Shown: piece by piece, positions 2,896 through 45,677 of the stretch
Layout of the letters: each line of letters begins with the position of its first letter
Numbering within the stretch: position 1 is the stretch's first letter
Assembly: GCA_001184205.1 (NCBI GenBank)
Contig: LBMP01000001.1
Location: forward strand, 772,001 to 836,000
From: Desulfocarbo indianensis
Lineage (GTDB): Bacteria; Desulfobacterota; Desulfarculia; Desulfarculales; Desulfarculaceae
Reading direction: 5' to 3'
Length of the DNA stretch: 64,000 nucleotides
Made by a program: the position numbers and the translations under genes
Notes under the pieces: generated by a model
Databases searched by the model: none
The model's input: only the letters and a program-made list of their open reading frames with translations
What the model was told of the DNA's origin: nothing

Positions 2896-3085
2896 GCGCC
2901 TGATACGGGGCCGCCTTTAACGGATGCCCGCCACCCCGGGCGGTCATGAAGGCCGCTTTTTCGTCTCAGCACAACGGGGCCCGCTTTTCGCGGGTGCCCG
3001 CCACTCCAGGGCGGTCCATAAAGGGCCGCCTTTTTTGTGCCTGATGCGGGGCCGCCGTTAGCGGATGCCCGCCACTCCCTGGGCC
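2896..3085. repeat. Three decayed tandem copies of the Na/Pi cotransporter gene 3' end
   Basis: Three related units run from about 2896-2961, 2966-3036 and 3037-3085. They share the order CTGATRCGGGGCCGCC, then GCCCGCCACYCC, then GGGCGGTC and a T-rich end. The third unit contains the true 3' end and stop codon (3058-3060) of the minus-strand cotransporter gene. The two outer copies are diverged and non-coding. This looks like local tandem duplication of the gene end followed by decay. Confidence 0.65.
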
Positions 3086-4746
3086 ACGTTGTAGAGGTAG
3101 TCGCCCATCTTTTCGAAGTTGGAAAGCATGTCCACGAACACCAGGCCGGGGTCCACGGTACAGGAGCCGGCGCGCAGGCGGGAGACGTGATTGTCCCTCA
3201 TGCGCGAGCGCATTTCGTCGATGGCGTCTTCCATCTTCTGGGCGGTTTCCATGATGTCGCGATCGCGTTCCTGCATGGAGCGCATGACCAGCTCGATGAA
3301 CCTGGCCACCTGGTCGCGTATCTCGCTGTAATCCCGCATGCCCTCGCTGGTGAGGTGCAGGTTGTCCTCGATCATCTCCTCGATGAGCTCGGCCACGTTT
3401 TCGACGGCGTCGCCCAGGCGCTCCACGTTGTTGGCCATGCGCATCAGCGAGGCCATCTCCCGGCTTTCCTTTTCGGTGATGGAGCCCTGGCTGATGCCCA
3501 CCAGAAACTCGGTGATCTCCCTTTGCAGGTTGTCCAGGGCGTCCTCGCTTTGCCGCCAACGGGTGAGGGGGTTCACCTTGCGGCTGAACATCACCTCGGT
3601 CACCTGGTGGAACATGGTCTGGGCGATGCTGGTCATGCGCACGGTCTCGTCCCGGGCCAGGGCCAGGGCCACGCTGGGGTTGTCCAGGTATTTGCGGTCC
3701 AGGAACTTGGGCTTGCCCAGGTCCTCCAGCCCGCGCTCATGCTCCTTGGCCGGGGTCAAGATAACCGCCGCCCTCACCAGGAGGGGCAGCACCGCCAGGA
3801 AGAATGAGGCGTTGACCACGTTGAACAGGGTGTGGGAGTTGGCTATGTAGCGGGCGATGTTGGGTTGTTCGCTGCCCTCCATGAGTTCGGCCGGGCCCAC
3901 GCCCATGGCCTGGGTCACCAGGGTGATCAGGCTGATGAAGGGCTGAAACAAGACCACCATGACGGCCACGCCTATGACATTGAACATGGTGTGCGCCCTG
4001 GCCGCCCTCTTGGCGGTGAGGCTGCCGCCGATGGCCGCCAGCTCCGCGGTGATGGTGGTGCCTATGTTGTCGCCCAGGATCAAAGCCACCGAGCCGGGCA
4101 GGTTCAAAAGGCCCTGGCTGGCCAGGGCGATGGTTATGCCCACCGTGGCCGAGCTGGATTGCAGGATTATGGTGAGCACCGTGCCCACCACCACGCACAG
4201 GATCACCCCCATGAAGTCGTTGGCCTCGAAGCGGGTGAAGAACGCGATGAAATCGGGATGAGTGCGCAGGGGCTTGAACCCGCTTTTCATCACCTCCATG
4301 CCGTAGAACAGCAGACCGAAGCCTAAAAAGACCTCGCCGATGTATTTCCACTTGCGGCGCTTGGCAAAGAGCTTGAGACACATGCCTACGAAAATGGCGA
4401 TGAGGGCCAGATGGCTGACCTTGAAGGCGATGATCTGGGCGGTGACCGTGGTGCCCACGTTGGCGCCCAGGATCACCCCCACGGCCTGGGTGAGGTTCAT
4501 GAGGCCGGCGTTCACGAAGCCCACCACCGTGACCGTGGTGAGGGACGACGATTGCACCAGGGCGGTGACCATGGTGCCCACCAAGGCGCCGATCACCCTG
4601 TTGGAGGAAACCAGTTCCAGAAAGTGGCGCAGCCGGTCGCCCGCCACTTTTTGCAGACCCTCGGACATGAGCTTCATTCCGAAAAGGAACATGCCCAGCC
4701 CGCCCAGGGCCAGAAAGACCACCATGTTCAAATCCATGTTTGCCAT
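3058..4746 (-). CDS. Na+/phosphate cotransporter with C-terminal PhoU-like domain (NptA/YjbB type)
   Basis: The 562-residue protein has an N-terminal half (about 1-340) with two inverted Na/Pi-cotransport repeats. Each carries the hallmark QSSS motif (VQSSSLTTVTVVGF and LQSSSATVGITIA) and a GANVGTT / GDNIGTT sequence. The C-terminal 200 residues form PhoU-like helical bundles, with acidic segments such as MANNVERLGDAVENVAEL. The family moves inorganic phosphate with sodium across the cytoplasmic membrane. It is divergent from a PstS-like gene, with a Pho-box-like array in the shared upstream region, which fits induction by phosphate limitation. The start used is the ATG at 4746; no clear Shine-Dalgarno is seen, so a start a few codons downstream is possible. 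Confidence 0.88.
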   Translation of the reverse strand: MANMDLNMVVFLALGGLGMFLFGMKLMSEGLQKVAGDRLRHFLELVSSNRVIGALVGTMVTALVQSSSLTTVTVVGFVNAGLMNLTQAVGVILGANVGTTVTAQIIAFKVSHLALIAIFVGMCLKLFAKRRKWKYIGEVFLGFGLLFYGMEVMKSGFKPLRTHPDFIAFFTRFEANDFMGVILCVVVGTVLTIILQSSSATVGITIALASQGLLNLPGSVALILGDNIGTTITAELAAIGGSLTAKRAARAHTMFNVIGVAVMVVLFQPFISLITLVTQAMGVGPAELMEGSEQPNIARYIANSHTLFNVVNASFFLAVLPLLVRAAVILTPAKEHERGLEDLGKPKFLDRKYLDNPSVALALARDETVRMTSIAQTMFHQVTEVMFSRKVNPLTRWRQSEDALDNLQREITEFLVGISQGSITEKESREMASLMRMANNVERLGDAVENVAELIEEMIEDNLHLTSEGMRDYSEIRDQVARFIELVMRSMQERDRDIMETAQKMEDAIDEMRSRMRDNHVSRLRAGSCTVDPGLVFVDMLSNFEKMGDYLYNVAQGVAGIR

Positions 4747-38184: not shown

Positions 38185-39702
38185 CTACTTGGTCAGGATC
38201 GGCATGCCCAAAAGCGGCCAGACCACCAGGATGGTTATGGTCAACACCGCCATCAGGATGATGTTGGCCAGCCAGCCGTAGGTGAAGAACTGCCCGGTGG
38301 TGAACTGCCTGGATTCATAGGCGATGGCGTTGGGCGCCGCGCCGATGAGCAGGTTGAAGGGCATGCCCGCGGTGACCAGCGAGGAGAACAGGATCACCTG
38401 GGGGCTGACGCCCAGGTAATTGCCCATGATGAGCGCCACGGGCAGACAAATGGCGATGGCCGCCACGTTCATTATGAAGTTGGTCAACATGAGCACCAGG
38501 AAGGCGATGGACAACAGGAAGACCAGCCAGGGCGCGGCCTTGAACATGCTGAGCCAATGCACGGCTATCCACTGGGCCGCCCCGGTCTGGATCAGGCAGT
38601 AGCCGATGCTCATGGCGCCGCCGAAGAGCAGGACGATGTTCCAGGGAATCTCCTCCAGGTCGTTGACGTTCAACACGCCGCCCAGGAAGAAGAGCATGGT
38701 GGAGACCAGGATGATGCCCGGCCGGCTCACCGTGGCCAGGGCCGGGACGAAGCTCTTGGCCATGAACAGGCCCACCACCATCAGGGTGACGGCCAGCACG
38801 TACCACTCTTTTTTGCTCATGGAGCCCTGCTGGGACGAAAGCCGCCCCACCCGCTCGCGCAGGTTTTCGATGCGGCTCTTTTCGGGCTTGAAGATCAGCA
38901 TGATCAGCCCCCAGAGCAGAAACACCATCACCCAGCCCACGGGCAGCATGTATTTGGACAGCTCGAAAAAGGCCACGTCCAGGCCGGTGGCTTCCTTGTA
39001 GAAGCCCACCGCGGCCACGCCGCGGGCCGCGCCCAGGAAGGTGCAGATGGAGCCCGCCCCGGCCACCCAGGCCATGCCGATGAACAGGGCCTTGCCGAAC
39101 TTGGTGGGCTCGTCCCTGTCGGTATAGAGCTGATGGATGGCCACCAGAAGCGGGAACATGGCCGCCGCCACCGCGGTGTGGGCCATGAAATGGGTCATGA
39201 AGGCGATGCACACGAAAACGCCCAGGAGAATCATGCTGGTGCGCTCGCCCACGATCTGCAGGATTCTATAGGCCAGCCTTTGGGTGAGCCCGCTCTTGGT
39301 GAAGGCCATGCCCAAAACCACCGAGCCGAAGATGAACCACACCGCCGGCGACAGGAAGTCCTTCAGGGCGTCGTCCGGGTTGCGGATGGAGAACAGCGCC
39401 TGCATCACGCCGATCATGATGGAGACCACGCCGATGGGCACCACCTCGAAAACCCACCAAAGCCCGGCCAGGAGGAACAGGCCCATGGCCATCTGGCCCT
39501 GCTTGCTCAGGGTGAAATGCTTGCCCGCCGTGTCCACCGCATCGGGAAACTGGTCGATGTTGTAGAACAGGGCGAAGATGCCCAGGCCCACGGCCACGAA
39601 GATCCACTTCCGCCAATTGAAGGGCTTTTTTTCCGGAGCAAGAGAGATGTCGTCGGGCATGGGGGGAAGGCCCCCGGCGCTTTGGCTTTTGTTTGCGGTC
39701 AT
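38185..39702 (-). CDS. SLC13/DASS-family anion:Na+ symporter
   Basis: A 505-residue transporter with about 12 hydrophobic segments. Features include the N-terminal scaffold (WWVFEVVPIGVVSIMIGVMQ), FMAHTAVAAAMFPLLVAIH with a SNT-like TxAxA region, and the C-terminal VLMLTNFIMNVAAIAICLPVALIMG substrate/Na+ motif followed by GMPFNLLIGAAPNAIAY. Substrates in this family are sulfate or C4-dicarboxylates; which applies here is unknown. First gene of an operon with the CBS and PEP-synthase-like genes, possibly a carboxylate uptake/activation unit. Confidence 0.85.
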   Translation of the reverse strand: MTANKSQSAGGLPPMPDDISLAPEKKPFNWRKWIFVAVGLGIFALFYNIDQFPDAVDTAGKHFTLSKQGQMAMGLFLLAGLWWVFEVVPIGVVSIMIGVMQALFSIRNPDDALKDFLSPAVWFIFGSVVLGMAFTKSGLTQRLAYRILQIVGERTSMILLGVFVCIAFMTHFMAHTAVAAAMFPLLVAIHQLYTDRDEPTKFGKALFIGMAWVAGAGSICTFLGAARGVAAVGFYKEATGLDVAFFELSKYMLPVGWVMVFLLWGLIMLIFKPEKSRIENLRERVGRLSSQQGSMSKKEWYVLAVTLMVVGLFMAKSFVPALATVSRPGIILVSTMLFFLGGVLNVNDLEEIPWNIVLLFGGAMSIGYCLIQTGAAQWIAVHWLSMFKAAPWLVFLLSIAFLVLMLTNFIMNVAAIAICLPVALIMGNYLGVSPQVILFSSLVTAGMPFNLLIGAAPNAIAYESRQFTTGQFFTYGWLANIILMAVLTITILVVWPLLGMPILTK

Positions 39703-40235
39703 GCTAAGCGTCCTCCCTCGGCGCTGGGTGCTGACTGGTCAGCCTCATAGGGCCCGCGGCCGGCGGGTCTCCAGGGGAGATTCATTCACATCGGGCGGAA
39801 AATCACCCGCCGGCCCCGGCCGCCCAGCGGCCAGAAGCCCTATTTGAATCAACTTGTTCGGCGCGCTCGGCGCTAAGGATTACCGGCCGGGACCATTCGC
39901 TCCGCCCCGCCGGCCAATCGCTCAATGGGTTATCCGCCCATTTAAGGATTAGGGCAGCCTACGATAAAAAGCGATATTGTGCAAGAGCGCACTTGCCGGT
40001 TGCGCCGTAGCGCCGCCGGCCCGCCTCCCCCGCCGCGCTCCCCGACACCGATTTTTCGCGATTCAGTAACCTAATCGCCACGTAAGGCGTGAAGATGTCT
40101 GTTAATCTACTGGCGGAGCGGGAAGTGGCTAGGACTTAAGCTAGAGGCCGTTTTCGTGGTGGGGCCCAAACGACGGGCGGCTGAAACAAATGGAGGCTAG
40201 TTGGCCGTTTTTCGGCTGCCCAGATGAGGACCGCC
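39703..40235. other. Divergent intergenic region, no gene
   Basis: A 533-base stretch between the SLC13 gene (minus) and the unknown operon (plus). It is AT-richer near 39940-40130 and holds a small inverted repeat GCAAG-N6-CTTGC (about 39979-39995). Promoters for both sides should be here but no consensus pair stands out. No coding sequence supported. Confidence 0.45.
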
Positions 40236-42671
40236 ATGAAATCATCGATATCGGGTGCGCCGGTTTTCAGCCGGGTCCGCTTTTGGCGCGGCCCTGGGGA
40301 GCAAACCGGCCTGGCGTGCCTGGGCGCGGGCGATCTCTTCCAGGGCACGGACCTCACCGCCGGCACCGAAACCGAGCTGCAAGCGGCGGTGACCGGGCCC
40401 AAGGAGGAGGTGGATCTGCCTAAAACCATTCAGGATTCCAATTTCTTCCGCAATCTGATCCGCCGGCACCGCAGGGGCGAGGCGCCGCGCAGCCTGCTCA
40501 GCGACCTGGAGCGCTTCATCAACGACAACCCGGAAAACCTGTGGGAGAATTCCTGGGTCCGCCTGCCCCGCGGCCTGGTGAACCGGTTCGCCGGCCGGGT
40601 GCTGGCCCGCGATCTCCTGGCCGACAAGTCGCGCCCGGAATTGGGCCAGCGGGCGGACGCCGGCCGCTTCCTTTATAACGAGGCCGGCCGGGAGTGGCTG
40701 CGCCTGCCGGTGAGCTATCTCCTGAAGCTCAGCCTGGCCCAGGCCCTGGGCGACCGGCCGGAGGCGCCGCGGCTCCTCCTGGAAACCGGCGCCGCCTGCC
40801 TGGAGAGTTTTTCCAGCGACAACACCTCGCCGGAGACCTGCTCCTTCTACGTGGTGGCCGGCCATGAAAGGGGCCTGGGCAAGGCAACGGCCAAGGAAAC
40901 CGCCATACGCTATCTGCTCTGCCAGTTGCTCACCCAATACGCCGAAAAAGGCCTGGGCCTGGGCGAGACCGGCCAGCGGCCCCTGGTCTATTTCGCGCCG
41001 TCCCCGCCCATCCGCCAGCGGCGGCTCAACGACTGCGTGTCGGACAGTTTCTACCGCGAGCTTTTCATGAGCCCCTGCCTTTCCGGCTGGGACCGGGGCG
41101 AGGAAAAGCACCGCTACATGCACCTGTGCCACCAGGTGCTCTCCCGCAGCCAGCTCAACGCGGTGGCCAAGCTCAAGGAGGCGGGCATCATAACCCGCAA
41201 CCTGGTGGTGCTGCCCAACACCTCCAACACCTGCCTGGCCAACAACGGCATCCACCTGAGCCTGGGCTCCCGGCGGCTGAGCGCCGCCCTGGCCGATCCG
41301 GAGTCGGGCTTCGGCGCGGCCCAGGAAAAGCACCTGGCCGACCTGGTCATCAAGGGGGTGGAGCATTTCCTGCCCCTGTTCGTGGGGGCCTATTCGGCCG
41401 CGCCCCTGCGCCTGGCCTTCAGCGATTTCCACCCCGAGCGCGCCCTGGGCTTCCTGCCCCACGAGTTGGACTTCACCCATCTGCGCATGATCTGGCGGCG
41501 CTGGAAGAAAAAGGCCAAGCTCAAGGTGCTGGGCCGGCCCATCACCCCCTTCGGCCCCCTGTGGCTGGATCGCAACCTGGCCCGGCTGCTGCGCCTGCGC
41601 GGCGACCTGGTGCCGGACTTCCGCCTGCTGGACTACCTGGCCTGCCTGCTCTCCACCGATTCGGCGCCGGGCCTGGACGGCTCCCCGGGCAACCAGGAGC
41701 GCCTGTTGGCCGATCTGGCCGAGGCCGGGGTCTTCGACTGCAAGATGGCCATGTATCTGCTTTACCGCCAGCGGGAATACGCCAAGATGGGCTTCAGCGG
41801 CTTCGAGGGCCGGCATTACAGCCTGTTCCCCAGCCTGGTCCGCGACTTGGCCCCGGCCGCCGATTTGCAGGCCCTGATCACCGCCATGTGCTATCGGCAG
41901 GCCTTAAGCGGCCGCCTGAGCCACGCCCTGATACCCGACGGGCCCGAGCTGGAAAGCGAGAGGCGGCAGATTTTCTTCGGCGCGGCGGTGGGGGTGCCCA
42001 CCTTTTTCGTGCGGGCCGACACGCCCAACCTCTATCTCAAGATGATCGTGGAGCGCTGCCGCCGGGTGCGGCCCAGCCGGCGCTATCCCGGCTATCTGCG
42101 GGTGTACAACCTGGAATACCGCCGCGCCCTCTTGGGCATGCTGCGGGAAGAAGCCGCCGATCTGAGCGAGGCGCTGGACGCCGGAGAAACCCTGCGCGAT
42201 CTGGCCGACCGCCTGGAGGACTGGCCCCGGCGCTCGGCGGCGGGGCGTCTCACCCAGGGGGTGCTGGAGGAGCTGGGCGCCCGCGATCCCCTGGCGGTGC
42301 CGGCCGAGGAATTCAACCTGGCGGCCGAGCGCTATTACCGCACCACCTTGCTTAAAGAGCACATGGGCGAGGCCCTGGACCTGGCCGCCGCCGACGTCCG
42401 CGCCCTGGAGGCCGCGCCGGAATTGGCCTTCAGCCAGCGCCGCCGCTCCCTGGAGCACGCCGCCGGCGGCAGGGGCGCGGCCGAGCTGGTGGCCGCGCTG
42501 CGGCCGCGGGTGCTGGAGCGCTCCGCCGATCAGGAAGAGCTGGGGAGCTTGATAAATCTCTTGTTGATAACCATTCAGGCCGAGACCGAGGCTTCCAACC
42601 AGGCCCTGGCCCGGCCCGTGAAGGTGAAGCGGGATCATGCAGCATTACTACATAGACAGATGCTCGGGTGA
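40236..42671 (+). CDS. Unrecognised 811-residue soluble protein, first gene of a PSD/Lgt-like operon
   Basis: I do not recognise this family. The protein is 811 residues, without signal peptide or membrane helices, mostly helical, rich in Arg/Leu. Segments that look conserved because they combine rare residues are FSSDNTSPETCSFYVVAGHE (about 193-213), LVVLPNTSNTCLANNGIHLS (about 325-345), FSDFHPERALGFLPHELDF (about 395-414) and GFEGRHYSLFPSLVRDL (about 520-536). These His/Asn/Asp/Glu-rich motifs suggest an enzyme. The ATG at 40236 has GAGGA five bases upstream; the ATG at 40224 does not. Its 3' end overlaps the PSD homologue by 35 bases, so the two are translated together, and an Lgt-like gene follows. 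Confidence 0.8.
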   Translation: MKSSISGAPVFSRVRFWRGPGEQTGLACLGAGDLFQGTDLTAGTETELQAAVTGPKEEVDLPKTIQDSNFFRNLIRRHRRGEAPRSLLSDLERFINDNPENLWENSWVRLPRGLVNRFAGRVLARDLLADKSRPELGQRADAGRFLYNEAGREWLRLPVSYLLKLSLAQALGDRPEAPRLLLETGAACLESFSSDNTSPETCSFYVVAGHERGLGKATAKETAIRYLLCQLLTQYAEKGLGLGETGQRPLVYFAPSPPIRQRRLNDCVSDSFYRELFMSPCLSGWDRGEEKHRYMHLCHQVLSRSQLNAVAKLKEAGIITRNLVVLPNTSNTCLANNGIHLSLGSRRLSAALADPESGFGAAQEKHLADLVIKGVEHFLPLFVGAYSAAPLRLAFSDFHPERALGFLPHELDFTHLRMIWRRWKKKAKLKVLGRPITPFGPLWLDRNLARLLRLRGDLVPDFRLLDYLACLLSTDSAPGLDGSPGNQERLLADLAEAGVFDCKMAMYLLYRQREYAKMGFSGFEGRHYSLFPSLVRDLAPAADLQALITAMCYRQALSGRLSHALIPDGPELESERRQIFFGAAVGVPTFFVRADTPNLYLKMIVERCRRVRPSRRYPGYLRVYNLEYRRALLGMLREEAADLSEALDAGETLRDLADRLEDWPRRSAAGRLTQGVLEELGARDPLAVPAEEFNLAAERYYRTTLLKEHMGEALDLAAADVRALEAAPELAFSQRRRSLEHAAGGRGAAELVAALRPRVLERSADQEELGSLINLLLITIQAETEASNQALARPVKVKRDHAALLHRQMLG

Positions 42672-43635
42672 GGTCAGGCGGGAGCGCCTTTTGGGCGACG
42701 GCCTGGTGGGGATCCTCTACTCGCGGGTGCGCGAACAGAGCCCCAAGCTGTTCCGGGCGCTCACCAGCCCCCGGGCCTCGGCCTGGCTGGCCCACCTGAA
42801 CTATGATTCCCTGTTGGGGGCCCGCCTGGCCGGCGCGTCCCGTTTCCTGCGCAGCCTGGGCGTGGACCCGGAGGAGCTGCGGGAGCCCCTGGAAGCGCTG
42901 GACACGCCCCGCAAGGTGTTCGAGCGCCGCATAAGGTACGAGGATTGCCGCCCCCTGGCCGGCGAGCGGGAAGTGGCCTCGCCGGCCGACGCCCGGGTGC
43001 TGGTGGGCTCCCTGCGCAAGGCCTCGGCCCTGTTCCTCAAGGAAAAATTTTTTTCCTTCGAGGAGCTTTTGGGCGAAACCAAGACCCGCTGGCTCACCGC
43101 CTTCCGCGGCGGCGATTACGCGGTCTTCCGCCTGACCCCGGAGAAATACCATTACAACCACGTGCCGGCCGCCGGCAGGGTGGTGGATCATTACGAGATC
43201 GAGGGGGCGCATCATTCCTGCAACCCCAGCGCGGTGGTGAGCCTGGTGACGCCCTTTTCCAAGAACCGGCGGGTGATCACGGTGCTGGACACCGACACCC
43301 AGGGCGGCGAGCGGGTGGGGCTGGTGGCCATGATAGAGGTGGCCGCCCTCATGATCGGCGAGATCGTGCAGTGCTACAGCCCTCAGGATTACGACCACCC
43401 CCAGCCCATAATGCCGGGCATGCTTTTGGCCAAGGGGCAGCCCAAGAGCCTGTTCCGCCCCGGCTCCAGCACGGTGGTGCTGCTTTTTCAGCCCGGCCGG
43501 GTGGGATTCAGCGAGGACCTGTTGGCCAACCAGTTGCGTCCCGGCGTGACCAGCCGCTTTTCCGCCGGCTTCGGCCGGCCCCTGGTGGAGACCGAGGTGC
43601 TGGTGCGTTCCGCCGTGGCCAGATCCTTGGCATAG
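42637..43635 (+). CDS. psd: Phosphatidylserine-decarboxylase homologue
   Basis: The 332-residue protein matches PSD family motifs: PEKYHYNHVPAAGRVVDHYEI (the substrate His region), CNPSAVVSL, NRRVITVLDT, and LFRPGSSTVVLLF, where the GSS serine undergoes self-cleavage to make the pyruvoyl group. True PSD converts phosphatidylserine to phosphatidylethanolamine. No phosphatidylserine synthase is nearby, and the operon partner is unknown, so another amino-acid-bearing substrate is possible. It starts inside the preceding gene (35-base overlap). No obvious membrane helix. Confidence 0.8.
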   Translation: MQHYYIDRCSGEVRRERLLGDGLVGILYSRVREQSPKLFRALTSPRASAWLAHLNYDSLLGARLAGASRFLRSLGVDPEELREPLEALDTPRKVFERRIRYEDCRPLAGEREVASPADARVLVGSLRKASALFLKEKFFSFEELLGETKTRWLTAFRGGDYAVFRLTPEKYHYNHVPAAGRVVDHYEIEGAHHSCNPSAVVSLVTPFSKNRRVITVLDTDTQGGERVGLVAMIEVAALMIGEIVQCYSPQDYDHPQPIMPGMLLAKGQPKSLFRPGSSTVVLLFQPGRVGFSEDLLANQLRPGVTSRFSAGFGRPLVETEVLVRSAVARSLA

Positions 43636-43654
43636 CATGCAAGAGGTATATGCG

Positions 43655-44698
43655 ATGGCAAACGAGTTGTTCCTGTTGGGGCTGGGCCTGGCGATGGCGG
43701 CTCTTTTGGCTTGGGGCTTCCGCGCGCTTCCCCAGGAGCGCTGGCAAATCTTGGCCGCCATTCCGGTCTACAAGCACGCCGACGGCGCCTGGCGCGGGGC
43801 CAATATAACCTTCTACGGCGTTTTCACGGCCAGCGCCCTTTTCGTGGCCGCCGCCCTGTTGGTGGTGATGCTGGGTTCCCTGGGCCTTTCCCTGCGGGTG
43901 GTGGGGGTGGTGCTCCTGCCGCTGGTGTCCTTGTGCACGCCGGCGGCCCGCCTGGTGGCCCGGGTGGTGGAAAAGAAAAACTACACTTTCACCGTAGCCG
44001 GGGCGTTTTTCGTGGGGCTGGTGGCCGCGCCCTGGTTGGTGATGGCGGCGGATCTGGCCCTGGGCGGCCAGGCGCAACTGCCGGTTTTGGCGGTGTGCTC
44101 CGCTCTCGGCGTGGCCTACGCATTTGGCGAGGGCCTGGGTCGCCTGGCCTGCATCAGCTTCGGCTGCTGCTATGGCAAGCCCCTGAGCCAATGCCCGCCC
44201 CGCCTGCAACGGCTTTTCGCCCGCCACAGCTTCGCCTTCAAGGGGGCCACCAAAAAGGCCGCCTATGAAAGCGGCCTGGAAGGCGCTCCCCTTTTGCCGG
44301 TGCAGGCCATCACCGCGGTCATCTATCTGGCCTGCGGCCTGGCCTGCCTGTATCTTTTCCTCTTGGGCCATTTCAGCGCCGCGCTCATGGTCTCCCTGGC
44401 CGTCACCCAGGGCTGGCGGGTTTGGAGCGAATTTTTCCGGGCGGATCACCGCGGCGGCGGCCGCCTGACGGCTTATCAATGGATGTCCTTGATCTCGGTG
44501 GCCTACGCGGGCCTGATGGCGCTGTGGCTGCCCGACCGGGCGGCGACTCCCTCCCTGGTGTCCGGCTTGTCGCTCCTGTGGGACCCCTGGGTTCTCATCA
44601 TGCTGCAGGCCCTGTGGGTGACGGTGCTCATCTACACCGGCCGCAGCAAGGTCACCGCCTCCACCATTTCCTTCAAGGTCCTGCAGGACCGCATCTGA
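43655..44698 (+). CDS. Lgt-like integral membrane protein (prolipoprotein diacylglyceryl transferase family)
   Basis: A 347-residue protein with about eight hydrophobic helices. It has the Lgt-like signature GEGLGRLACISFGCCYGKPLS and a later EFFRADHRGGGRLTAYQWMSL, resembling the R-x-G / E-x-R-x-D regions of Lgt homologues that carry GCCYG. The canonical Lgt moves diacylglycerol from phosphatidylglycerol to a lipoprotein cysteine. Whether it is catalytic on proteins here is unclear. The ATG at 43655 is used because AAGAGG lies eight bases upstream; the ATG at 43637 would give a short hydrophilic extension. It follows the PSD homologue by 19 bases. Confidence 0.75.
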   Translation: MANELFLLGLGLAMAALLAWGFRALPQERWQILAAIPVYKHADGAWRGANITFYGVFTASALFVAAALLVVMLGSLGLSLRVVGVVLLPLVSLCTPAARLVARVVEKKNYTFTVAGAFFVGLVAAPWLVMAADLALGGQAQLPVLAVCSALGVAYAFGEGLGRLACISFGCCYGKPLSQCPPRLQRLFARHSFAFKGATKKAAYESGLEGAPLLPVQAITAVIYLACGLACLYLFLLGHFSAALMVSLAVTQGWRVWSEFFRADHRGGGRLTAYQWMSLISVAYAGLMALWLPDRAATPSLVSGLSLLWDPWVLIMLQALWVTVLIYTGRSKVTASTISFKVLQDRI

Positions 44699-44764
44699 CC
44701 GCCGCCCACGCCGAGCCCGCGCCCCGGCTGGTAGTAACTAGTTCCGGGGTATGGGATTTTAAGG

Positions 44765-44804
44765 CCGGTTCGGTTACACTATCTGATAGTATTGGGTGAA
44801 CCGG
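44765..44804. promoter_or_regulatory. Nested inverted repeat upstream of the CheW-CZB gene
   Basis: Outer arms CCGGTTC (44765-44771) and GAACCGG (44798-44804) enclose an inner ACTAT-CTG-ATAGT palindrome (44778-44790). It lies 27 bases before the ATG at 44832. It may be an operator or a structured 5' leader. Confidence 0.4.
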
Positions 44805-44831
44805 TAACCCCAGCCATGAGGCCGACGGTTT

Positions 44832-45677
44832 ATGACCAGCGATATAGCGACGGATTTTCCCTGGGTAATCTTTCGCCTTAAAGAACAGCGCCTGGCACTT
44901 TCTTCCGTTGACGTGCAGGAGATGCTGGCCCTGCCCAAGGTGACAGCCGTGCCCAACGCCCCTGACCATGTCAGGGGCATGATTAATTTGCGCGGGTCGG
45001 TGATGCCCCTCTTGGACTTGCGCCGCCGCCTCGGCTTTCCTTCCTCCCTGGAGGAGATGGAGGAGTTGGTCGAGCTGTTGGTGCAGCGCGAGGAGGATCA
45101 TAAGAACTACCTGTCCGAGCTGGAATCATCGGTGCGCGACCGCCGCAAATTCACCCTGACCACGGACCACGCCAAATGCGCTTTCGGCCAGTGGTACCAG
45201 TCCTTCAATTCCGACAACCTGGAACTTATGGGCATCCTCCTGCAGTTCGACCGGCCTCACCAGCGCATCCACCAGATCGCCAACGAGGTTGATCTTCTCA
45301 GCAGTCAGGGCCAATTCGACCAGGCCTACGCCCTGATCCAGCAAACCAGGGACGGGGCCTTGGACCGCATGGTGCAGCTTTTCTCCGAGGTGCGTTCGGC
45401 CATCCGCCGCACCCACCGCGAAATCGCCATGGTGGTGGAAAGAAACGGCGAGAACGTGGCCCTGGCCGTGGACCAGGTGGAAGCGGTGGAGATGCTTTCG
45501 CCGGGCACGGTGGAGCAGGTGCCTTCCGGCTTCGGCGCCATCGACGATCGGCTCATAGCCATGGTGGGCCGCCGGGAGGAAGACGACGAGATGGTGCTGA
45601 TCCTGGACATAGCCGCCCTCTTGGAAGAAGGGGCCAATCTGGCCCAAGGCGGGCTTCTGGACAGCCAGACCGGCTGA
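44832..45677 (+). CDS. CheW adaptor with inserted CZB zinc-sensor domain
   Basis: About 281 residues. The CheW fold is split: residues 1-70 (FPWVIFRLKEQRLALSSVDV, VRGMINLRGSVMPLLDLRRR) and 195-275 (AIDDRLIAMVGRREEDDEMV, ILDIAALL). Between them is a CZB-like helical bundle: His in REEDHKNYLSELE, DHAKCAFGQWYQSF with Cys and the G-x-W-Y pair, and RPHQRIHQIA with two His, the zinc-binding set (H...C...H...H) of chemoreceptor zinc-binding domains. It would link zinc or oxidant sensing by the Cys to CheA array signalling. The gene is alone; a soluble MCP is encoded about 2 kb downstream. Confidence 0.8.
   Translation: MTSDIATDFPWVIFRLKEQRLALSSVDVQEMLALPKVTAVPNAPDHVRGMINLRGSVMPLLDLRRRLGFPSSLEEMEELVELLVQREEDHKNYLSELESSVRDRRKFTLTTDHAKCAFGQWYQSFNSDNLELMGILLQFDRPHQRIHQIANEVDLLSSQGQFDQAYALIQQTRDGALDRMVQLFSEVRSAIRRTHREIAMVVERNGENVALAVDQVEAVEMLSPGTVEQVPSGFGAIDDRLIAMVGRREEDDEMVLILDIAALLEEGANLAQGGLLDSQTG

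Follow-up and report, generated by a model that had tools for sequence, protein, structure and literature searches.

A three-gene operon of Desulfocarbo indianensis encoding a predicted carboxylate-amine ligase of a new family and possibly making an amine- or amide-bearing lipid

A 64,000-nucleotide stretch of the Desulfocarbo indianensis genome (contig LBMP01000001.1, positions 772,001-836,000 of the forward strand; hereafter the window, to whose positions all unprefixed coordinates refer) carries an operon in which the gene for a protein of 811 residues, ORF1 (open reading frame 1), precedes those for a phosphatidylserine decarboxylase (PSD) homologue and an Lgt-like integral membrane protein. 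The best overall explanation of this operon, to which we give a probability of roughly 0.5, is that it makes an amine- or amide-bearing diacylglycerol lipid, plausibly free of phosphorus, when phosphate is scarce. ORF1 (40236..42671, with an alternative in-frame ATG at 40224) and the PSD gene (42637..43635, 332 residues) overlap by 35 bases, and a gap of 19 bases separates the latter from the Lgt-like gene (43655..44698, 347 residues); all three lie on the + strand, as do the motifs located below. These coordinates bear out the tight arrangement described in a first-pass annotation of this DNA. The frame of the Lgt-like gene contains an alternative ATG at 43637, and relatives begin at the position matching 43655.

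The same annotation had found no recognised domain in the 811-residue protein, and ORF1 indeed has no match at E<=1 in Pfam or NCBIfam, the families GCS2 (PF04107), Glu_cys_ligase and Pup_ligase included. A sequence search of the PDB with ORF1 and with its profile likewise found no relative. Three motifs in the ORF1 alignment, DxTxGxExELQ, DNTSPE and NNGTHxSLGS, resembled those of glutamate-cysteine ligases and Pup ligases, a likeness noted prior to the fold search. The structure of ORF1 was predicted with AlphaFold2 from 76 sequences (mean predicted local distance difference test score, pLDDT, 88; predicted template modelling score 0.91), and a Foldseek comparison of the model with the PDB placed GshA (E 0.027, probability 0.98) and PafA in the top rows. 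Superposition with VIA-align gave Z 16.6 for E. coli GshA (root mean square deviation 4.1 over 410 residues), Z 15.9 for YbdK (3.6 over 338 residues), Z 14.7 for PafA (3.8 over 369 residues) and Z 14.2 for Dop, with type III glutamine synthetase at Z 6.0 and all other rows at Z <=4.0. The model places ORF1, as a new family, in the GCS/YbdK/Pup-ligase fold (GCS, gamma-glutamylcysteine synthetase), that of the carboxylate-amine ligases of the glutamine synthetase superfamily, with matches at Z 14-17. Structure prediction had been proposed as a check on the annotation, and ORF1 is not a known housekeeping family. Its predicted activity is very probably that of an ATP-dependent carboxylate-amine (amide) ligase.

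The conserved residues of ORF1 form motifs that can be aligned with those of GCS enzymes. The GxExE motif on strand 1 (G43, E45 and E47; 40362..40376) is invariant in 76/76 sequences and aligns by motif to G25, E27 and E29 of GshA. Next comes an insertion specific to the family and about 134 residues long (approximately residues 56-189, 40401..40802, positioned from the model and the alignment), whereas only 30 residues lie between E29 and D60 of GshA. Beyond this insertion lies D195-N-T-S-P-E200 (40818..40835; D195, N196, S198, P199 and E200 invariant in 76/76), the proposed counterpart of GshA D60..E67, which also resembles the HPE motif of PafA. G338-x-H340-x-S-x-G-S345 (41247..41270) aligns to the GxHxH/GVHYNFS strand of GCS enzymes (GshA H150), and E524-x-R526 (41805..41813) to the VEVR strand (GshA E328/R330). 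The motif residues are invariant in all 76 sequences, S342 and G344 nearly so, and as matched by motif alignment they follow the order E27/E29, D60/E67, H150, E328/R330 of the E. coli enzyme. The best pieces of profile alignments (hhalign) with YbdK-like proteins, although the alignments are weak, pair these same predicted motifs, GTHVSLG with GLHVHVG and FEGRHYSLF with VEVRICDIP. ORF1 shares with GshA and the YbdK/GCS2 proteins its predicted fold and the succession of its motifs, GxExE, D..E, GxH and then ExR, but differs from them in its insertion, in its larger size, in the lack of significant sequence similarity and in being tied to PSD and Lgt-like genes. It also has a long helical C-terminal part.

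This tie is close. A first search of 60 relatives gave ORF1 matches in 16 genomes, and at loci with a complete or nearly complete ORF1 this gene is succeeded by that of the PSD and then by the Lgt-like gene wherever the contig extends, with no gene outside the three-gene set recurring among these loci. An independent collection, obtained by scanning GTDB species genomes, yielded 219 stretches encoding ORF1 relatives; among the best 80 of these loci the PSD gene adjoins ORF1 in 76 and the Lgt-like gene lies within the examined flank in 72, and 57 of the 76 ORF1-PSD pairs overlap, gene starts having been chosen mechanically. Co-occurrence across the Desulfobacterota had been set beforehand as a check. 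ORF1 is present in 26 of 247 genomes of this phylum, and a strong match to the Lgt-like protein (E<1e-100) in 27, including all 26, which rules out rare co-occurrence; in the additional genome (G009) the contig ends beside the Lgt-like gene, where the other two genes would be. At three loci of a single clade (L089, L093 and L109) ORF1 is separated from its partners, and each of these genomes has the PSD-Lgt pair at another place. At another locus (L101) neither partner was seen, with ORF1 at the contig end. Pairwise distances among the three proteins are correlated (r 0.66-0.80). We conclude that the three genes almost certainly constitute one pathway or functional unit.

Such co-inheritance bears on the idea that ORF1 synthesises a soluble thiol or dipeptide of low molecular weight, an analogue of the glutathione precursor, while the lipid genes serve a separate need. 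The rank of GshA as top structural match and the lack of a GCS2 protein in the Desulfocarbo indianensis genome speak for it. The near-perfect co-occurrence of the three genes, unlinked cases included, speaks against it, as does the presence of a GCS2 protein in other carriers (G135, G207, G248 and G278), and we consider it very improbable.

The second gene encodes a predicted pyruvoyl-type decarboxylase that is of the PSD family, with its catalytic residues intact. It scores 130.8 bits against PF02666 (cut-off 22; E 6.9e-38), and its profile matches the E. coli PSD structures at E 3e-17. The counterparts of E. coli D90 (D118, 42988..42990) and of H144 and H147 (H172 and H175, 43150..43161) are each invariant in 53/53 homologues. 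The self-cleaving GSS recognised in the first-pass annotation proves to be a conserved cleavage site, G276-S277-S278-T279 (43462..43473), in which S278, the counterpart of E. coli S254, is invariant in 53/53 and S277 is replaced by Gly in some members. H144 of the E. coli enzyme has a part in self-cleavage and also in recognising the carboxyl group that leaves (PMC7952604). The homologue differs from E. coli Psd in carrying, in 53/53 sequences, an Arg where the latter has the phosphate-contacting Tyr137, in reaching none of the NCBIfam equivalog cut-offs (124 bits against the 371 of the PRK00723 group) and in its position away from pssA. The operon was said to lack a phosphatidylserine synthase, and it contains none; pssA lies on another contig. 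Two further PSDs, both named by eye, are encoded in the genome, one beside pssA (contig C323), an arrangement that fits housekeeping synthesis of phosphatidylethanolamine, and one PsiD-like (contig C222). As a separate housekeeping psd-pssA pair is present, the operon PSD was rejected as the only PSD of the genome. The PsiD-like protein (L040:7755-9137) has an apparent signal peptide. In one carrier genome (G011) the PSD homologue (L026:9759-10496) is missing about 87 residues, the GSS self-cleavage site included, which may reflect a genuine deletion or an error of assembly.

The third protein is, as had been proposed, an Lgt-fold membrane protein, matching the Pfam family LGT (PF01790) at 34 bits (cut-off 24.9) and, by its model (pLDDT 92), E. 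coli Lgt (5azb) at Z 13.4, with the next row at Z 4.5. Relative to Lgt it has an additional first helix and an additional C-terminal strand. The segment GEGLGRLACISFGCCYG (44126..44176) is the counterpart of the Lgt signature GRLGNFINGELWG; R143 is kept, and N146 and E151 are replaced by Cys in 45/45 sequences. R255-x3-E259-x2-R262 (44417..44440) corresponds to R239/E243/R246 of E. coli Lgt and is present in 45/45 at each position, and altogether 44-45 of the 45 sequences keep the counterparts of the donor-site residues Y26, R143, R239, E243 and R246; a row for the Lgt of the genome itself, which proved to be a wrong reading frame, was left out of account. H103 (of HGGL) is lost in every one of them, its counterpart being mostly Val and otherwise Ile, Thr or Leu. 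For E. coli Lgt it has been proposed that the donor phosphatidylglycerol is held and activated by R143 and R239 and the lipobox peptide bound by H103; H103 and E151 are both essential (PMC4728403). These replacements suggest that the lipid donor has been kept and the acceptor changed, and the loss of H103 speaks against ordinary lipoprotein lipidation. The protein was rejected as the housekeeping Lgt, a separate canonical lgt being present in the genome.

An alternative is protein lipidation or tagging, in which ORF1, acting in the manner of PafA, would couple a carboxylate on a protein with the amine of a lipid produced by the PSD homologue, and the Lgt-like protein would add diacylglycerol. 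In its favour, the structural matches include PafA and Dop (Z 14-15), ORF1 is large and has its extra insertion, and Lgt itself modifies proteins. GshA and YbdK, which are small-molecule enzymes, match at least equally well, however, and the residue of peptide acceptance, H103, is the one replaced throughout. ORF1 further differs from PafA and Dop in its gene neighbours as well as in the lack of a Pup_ligase match, and no conserved small protein adjoins the operon in its loci; when a Pup-like partner was looked for beside the operon none was recognised, the recurrent matches resembling antisense frames or known regulators. We regard this alternative as improbable, though less so than the soluble thiol.

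For the preferred lipid pathway the following steps may be envisaged. ORF1 would activate a carboxylate with ATP for coupling to an amine; the pyruvoyl group of the PSD homologue would remove a carboxyl adjacent to a free amine; and the Lgt-like protein would transfer diacylglyceryl from a phospholipid such as phosphatidylglycerol to the small polar acceptor thus formed, with release of glycerol phosphate. Coupling of a side chain by ORF1 in the gamma-glutamyl manner, we suggest, would leave an alpha-amine and alpha-carboxyl free for the decarboxylase. We put the chance that the product is a diacylglyceryl amine or amide lipid as evenly balanced. The first-pass annotation had proposed that the unknown protein makes or loads an amino-acyl precursor, which the PSD homologue decarboxylates and the Lgt-like protein transfers to a protein or polar carrier. 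That outline survives in part: the genes act as one unit, the amide-forming (amino-acyl coupling) fold class of ORF1 fits the making or loading of such a precursor, and the donor residues of the Lgt-like protein are kept, but attachment to a protein is disfavoured by the loss of H103.

A connection with phosphate is suggested by gene neighbours in other carrier genomes, where PhoU, Pst components, PhoB-type regulators, PhoH, phosphoesterases and a PHP-domain plus GT4 glycosyltransferase fusion recur (some named by eye). A PhoU domain or PHP-GT4 protein is encoded within 20 kb of ORF1 in 12/29 carrier genomes, against 0.9 expected from a Poisson estimate based on gene numbers and genome sizes and uncorrected for phylogeny; the two gene types were chosen after other loci had been viewed. 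This proximity suggests phosphate-responsive lipid remodelling, and a link of the operon to phosphate supply is in our judgement slightly favoured. In Desulfovibrio alaskensis under phosphate limitation, glycolipids (Agt, Dde_3613) and ornithine lipids (OlsF, Dde_3661) replace phospholipids (PMC5193443). The present loci resemble such systems (Agt/OlsF, PlcP-Agt) in having lipid genes near Pst and Pho genes, with glycosyltransferase and phosphoesterase neighbours, but among described remodelling systems we found none, with partial coverage of the literature, in which a PSD homologue and an Lgt-like protein accompany a ligase of the GCS fold.

The PHP phosphoesterase-like plus GT4 fusion, of about 817 residues, recurs near the operon at loci L032, L043, L044, L048, L049, L052, L054, L055, L058, L063 and L086, and may be a one-chain converter of phospholipid to glycolipid. 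In Trichlorobacter its gene lies between the PSD and Lgt-like genes and overlaps the latter. Operons of this type also encode, between the PSD and PHP-GT4 genes, a 735-residue protein with no Pfam or NCBIfam match (L054:11268-13475, also at L055), its gene overlapping that of the PSD by a few bases.

Several points weigh against the preferred reading. The assignment of ORF1 to its fold depends on a predicted model, for which no PDB row in Foldseek falls below E 0.001, and hhalign of ORF1 with GCS2 proteins of the same phylum is not significant (P ~0.04-0.06). The absence of both H103 and E151 from the Lgt-like protein means that its transfer chemistry may differ. E. coli Lgt works at the periplasmic face of the membrane and PSD at the cytoplasmic face, so that the acceptor would have to cross the membrane. 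The pathway chemistry and product are predictions from genes and models. As to phosphate, 17/29 genomes, including that of Desulfocarbo indianensis, encode neither a PhoU domain nor a PHP-GT4 protein within 20 kb; the nearest PhoU-domain protein (3079-3642, in an open frame of 571 residues, perhaps a Na/Pi cotransporter) is encoded about 37 kb upstream of the operon; and Pho-box-like sites upstream, sought with the E. coli consensus only, are in slight excess near background (p 0.018).

The count of 17/29 and the weak Pho-box signal favour an amine or amide lipid of the envelope unrelated to phosphate, the phosphate-related neighbours then being a by-product of the clustering of lipid and envelope genes. 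The 12/29 observed against 0.9 expected argues the other way, and so does the recurrence of Pst components, PhoB-type regulators, PhoH and phosphoesterases beyond the two counted gene types; we hold this alternative to be unlikely, yet clearly ahead of protein tagging.

Returning to the phosphate-linked lipid, a wider proposal can be put forward tentatively: a new class of diacylglycerol lipid in anaerobes, anammox bacteria and others, serving as a phosphorus-free replacement, with a head group that a GCS-fold ligase and a pyruvoyl decarboxylase would make and that Lgt-type transfer from phosphatidylglycerol would attach. If true, such a lipid could account for some of the unassigned polar lipids of anoxic environments and would represent a new phosphate-saving route. 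All three proteins are members of known superfamilies. The system as a whole appears undescribed; a literature search on the three-gene combination, partial in coverage, found no relevant paper. For a family of about 800 residues that has no name in Pfam or NCBIfam and occurs in about 219 species genomes, the analysis supplies a predicted fold and chemistry together with two partners that are nearly always present.

The tree intermixes Desulfobacterota, Planctomycetota (Brocadia, Anammoxibacter), Nitrospinota, Acidobacteriota and SAR324, and this mixing, together with patchy presence, suggests horizontal transfer. ORF1 was absent from the phage and plasmid records searched, and comparison with a viral structure library gave no significant match. 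Cultured carriers include Trichlorobacter thiogenes, Geomonas silvestris, Dethiosulfatarculus sandiegensis and Desulfosarcina widdelii. In Syntrophaceae-type genomes a DksA/TraR-like zinc-finger protein of about 139 residues, assigned by eye, is encoded between the PSD and Lgt-like genes (L077, L079, L083, L088, L096, L104, L108 and L110).

Around the operon, an Rfam search of 39600-45000 gave no match, and promoter and terminator scans returned signals at chance level. Upstream of ORF1 about 500 bases without an evident gene separate it from a divergent transporter gene. Immediately downstream of the operon lies the gene for a CheW protein with a CZB zinc-binding domain (44832-45677), which is not conserved with it.

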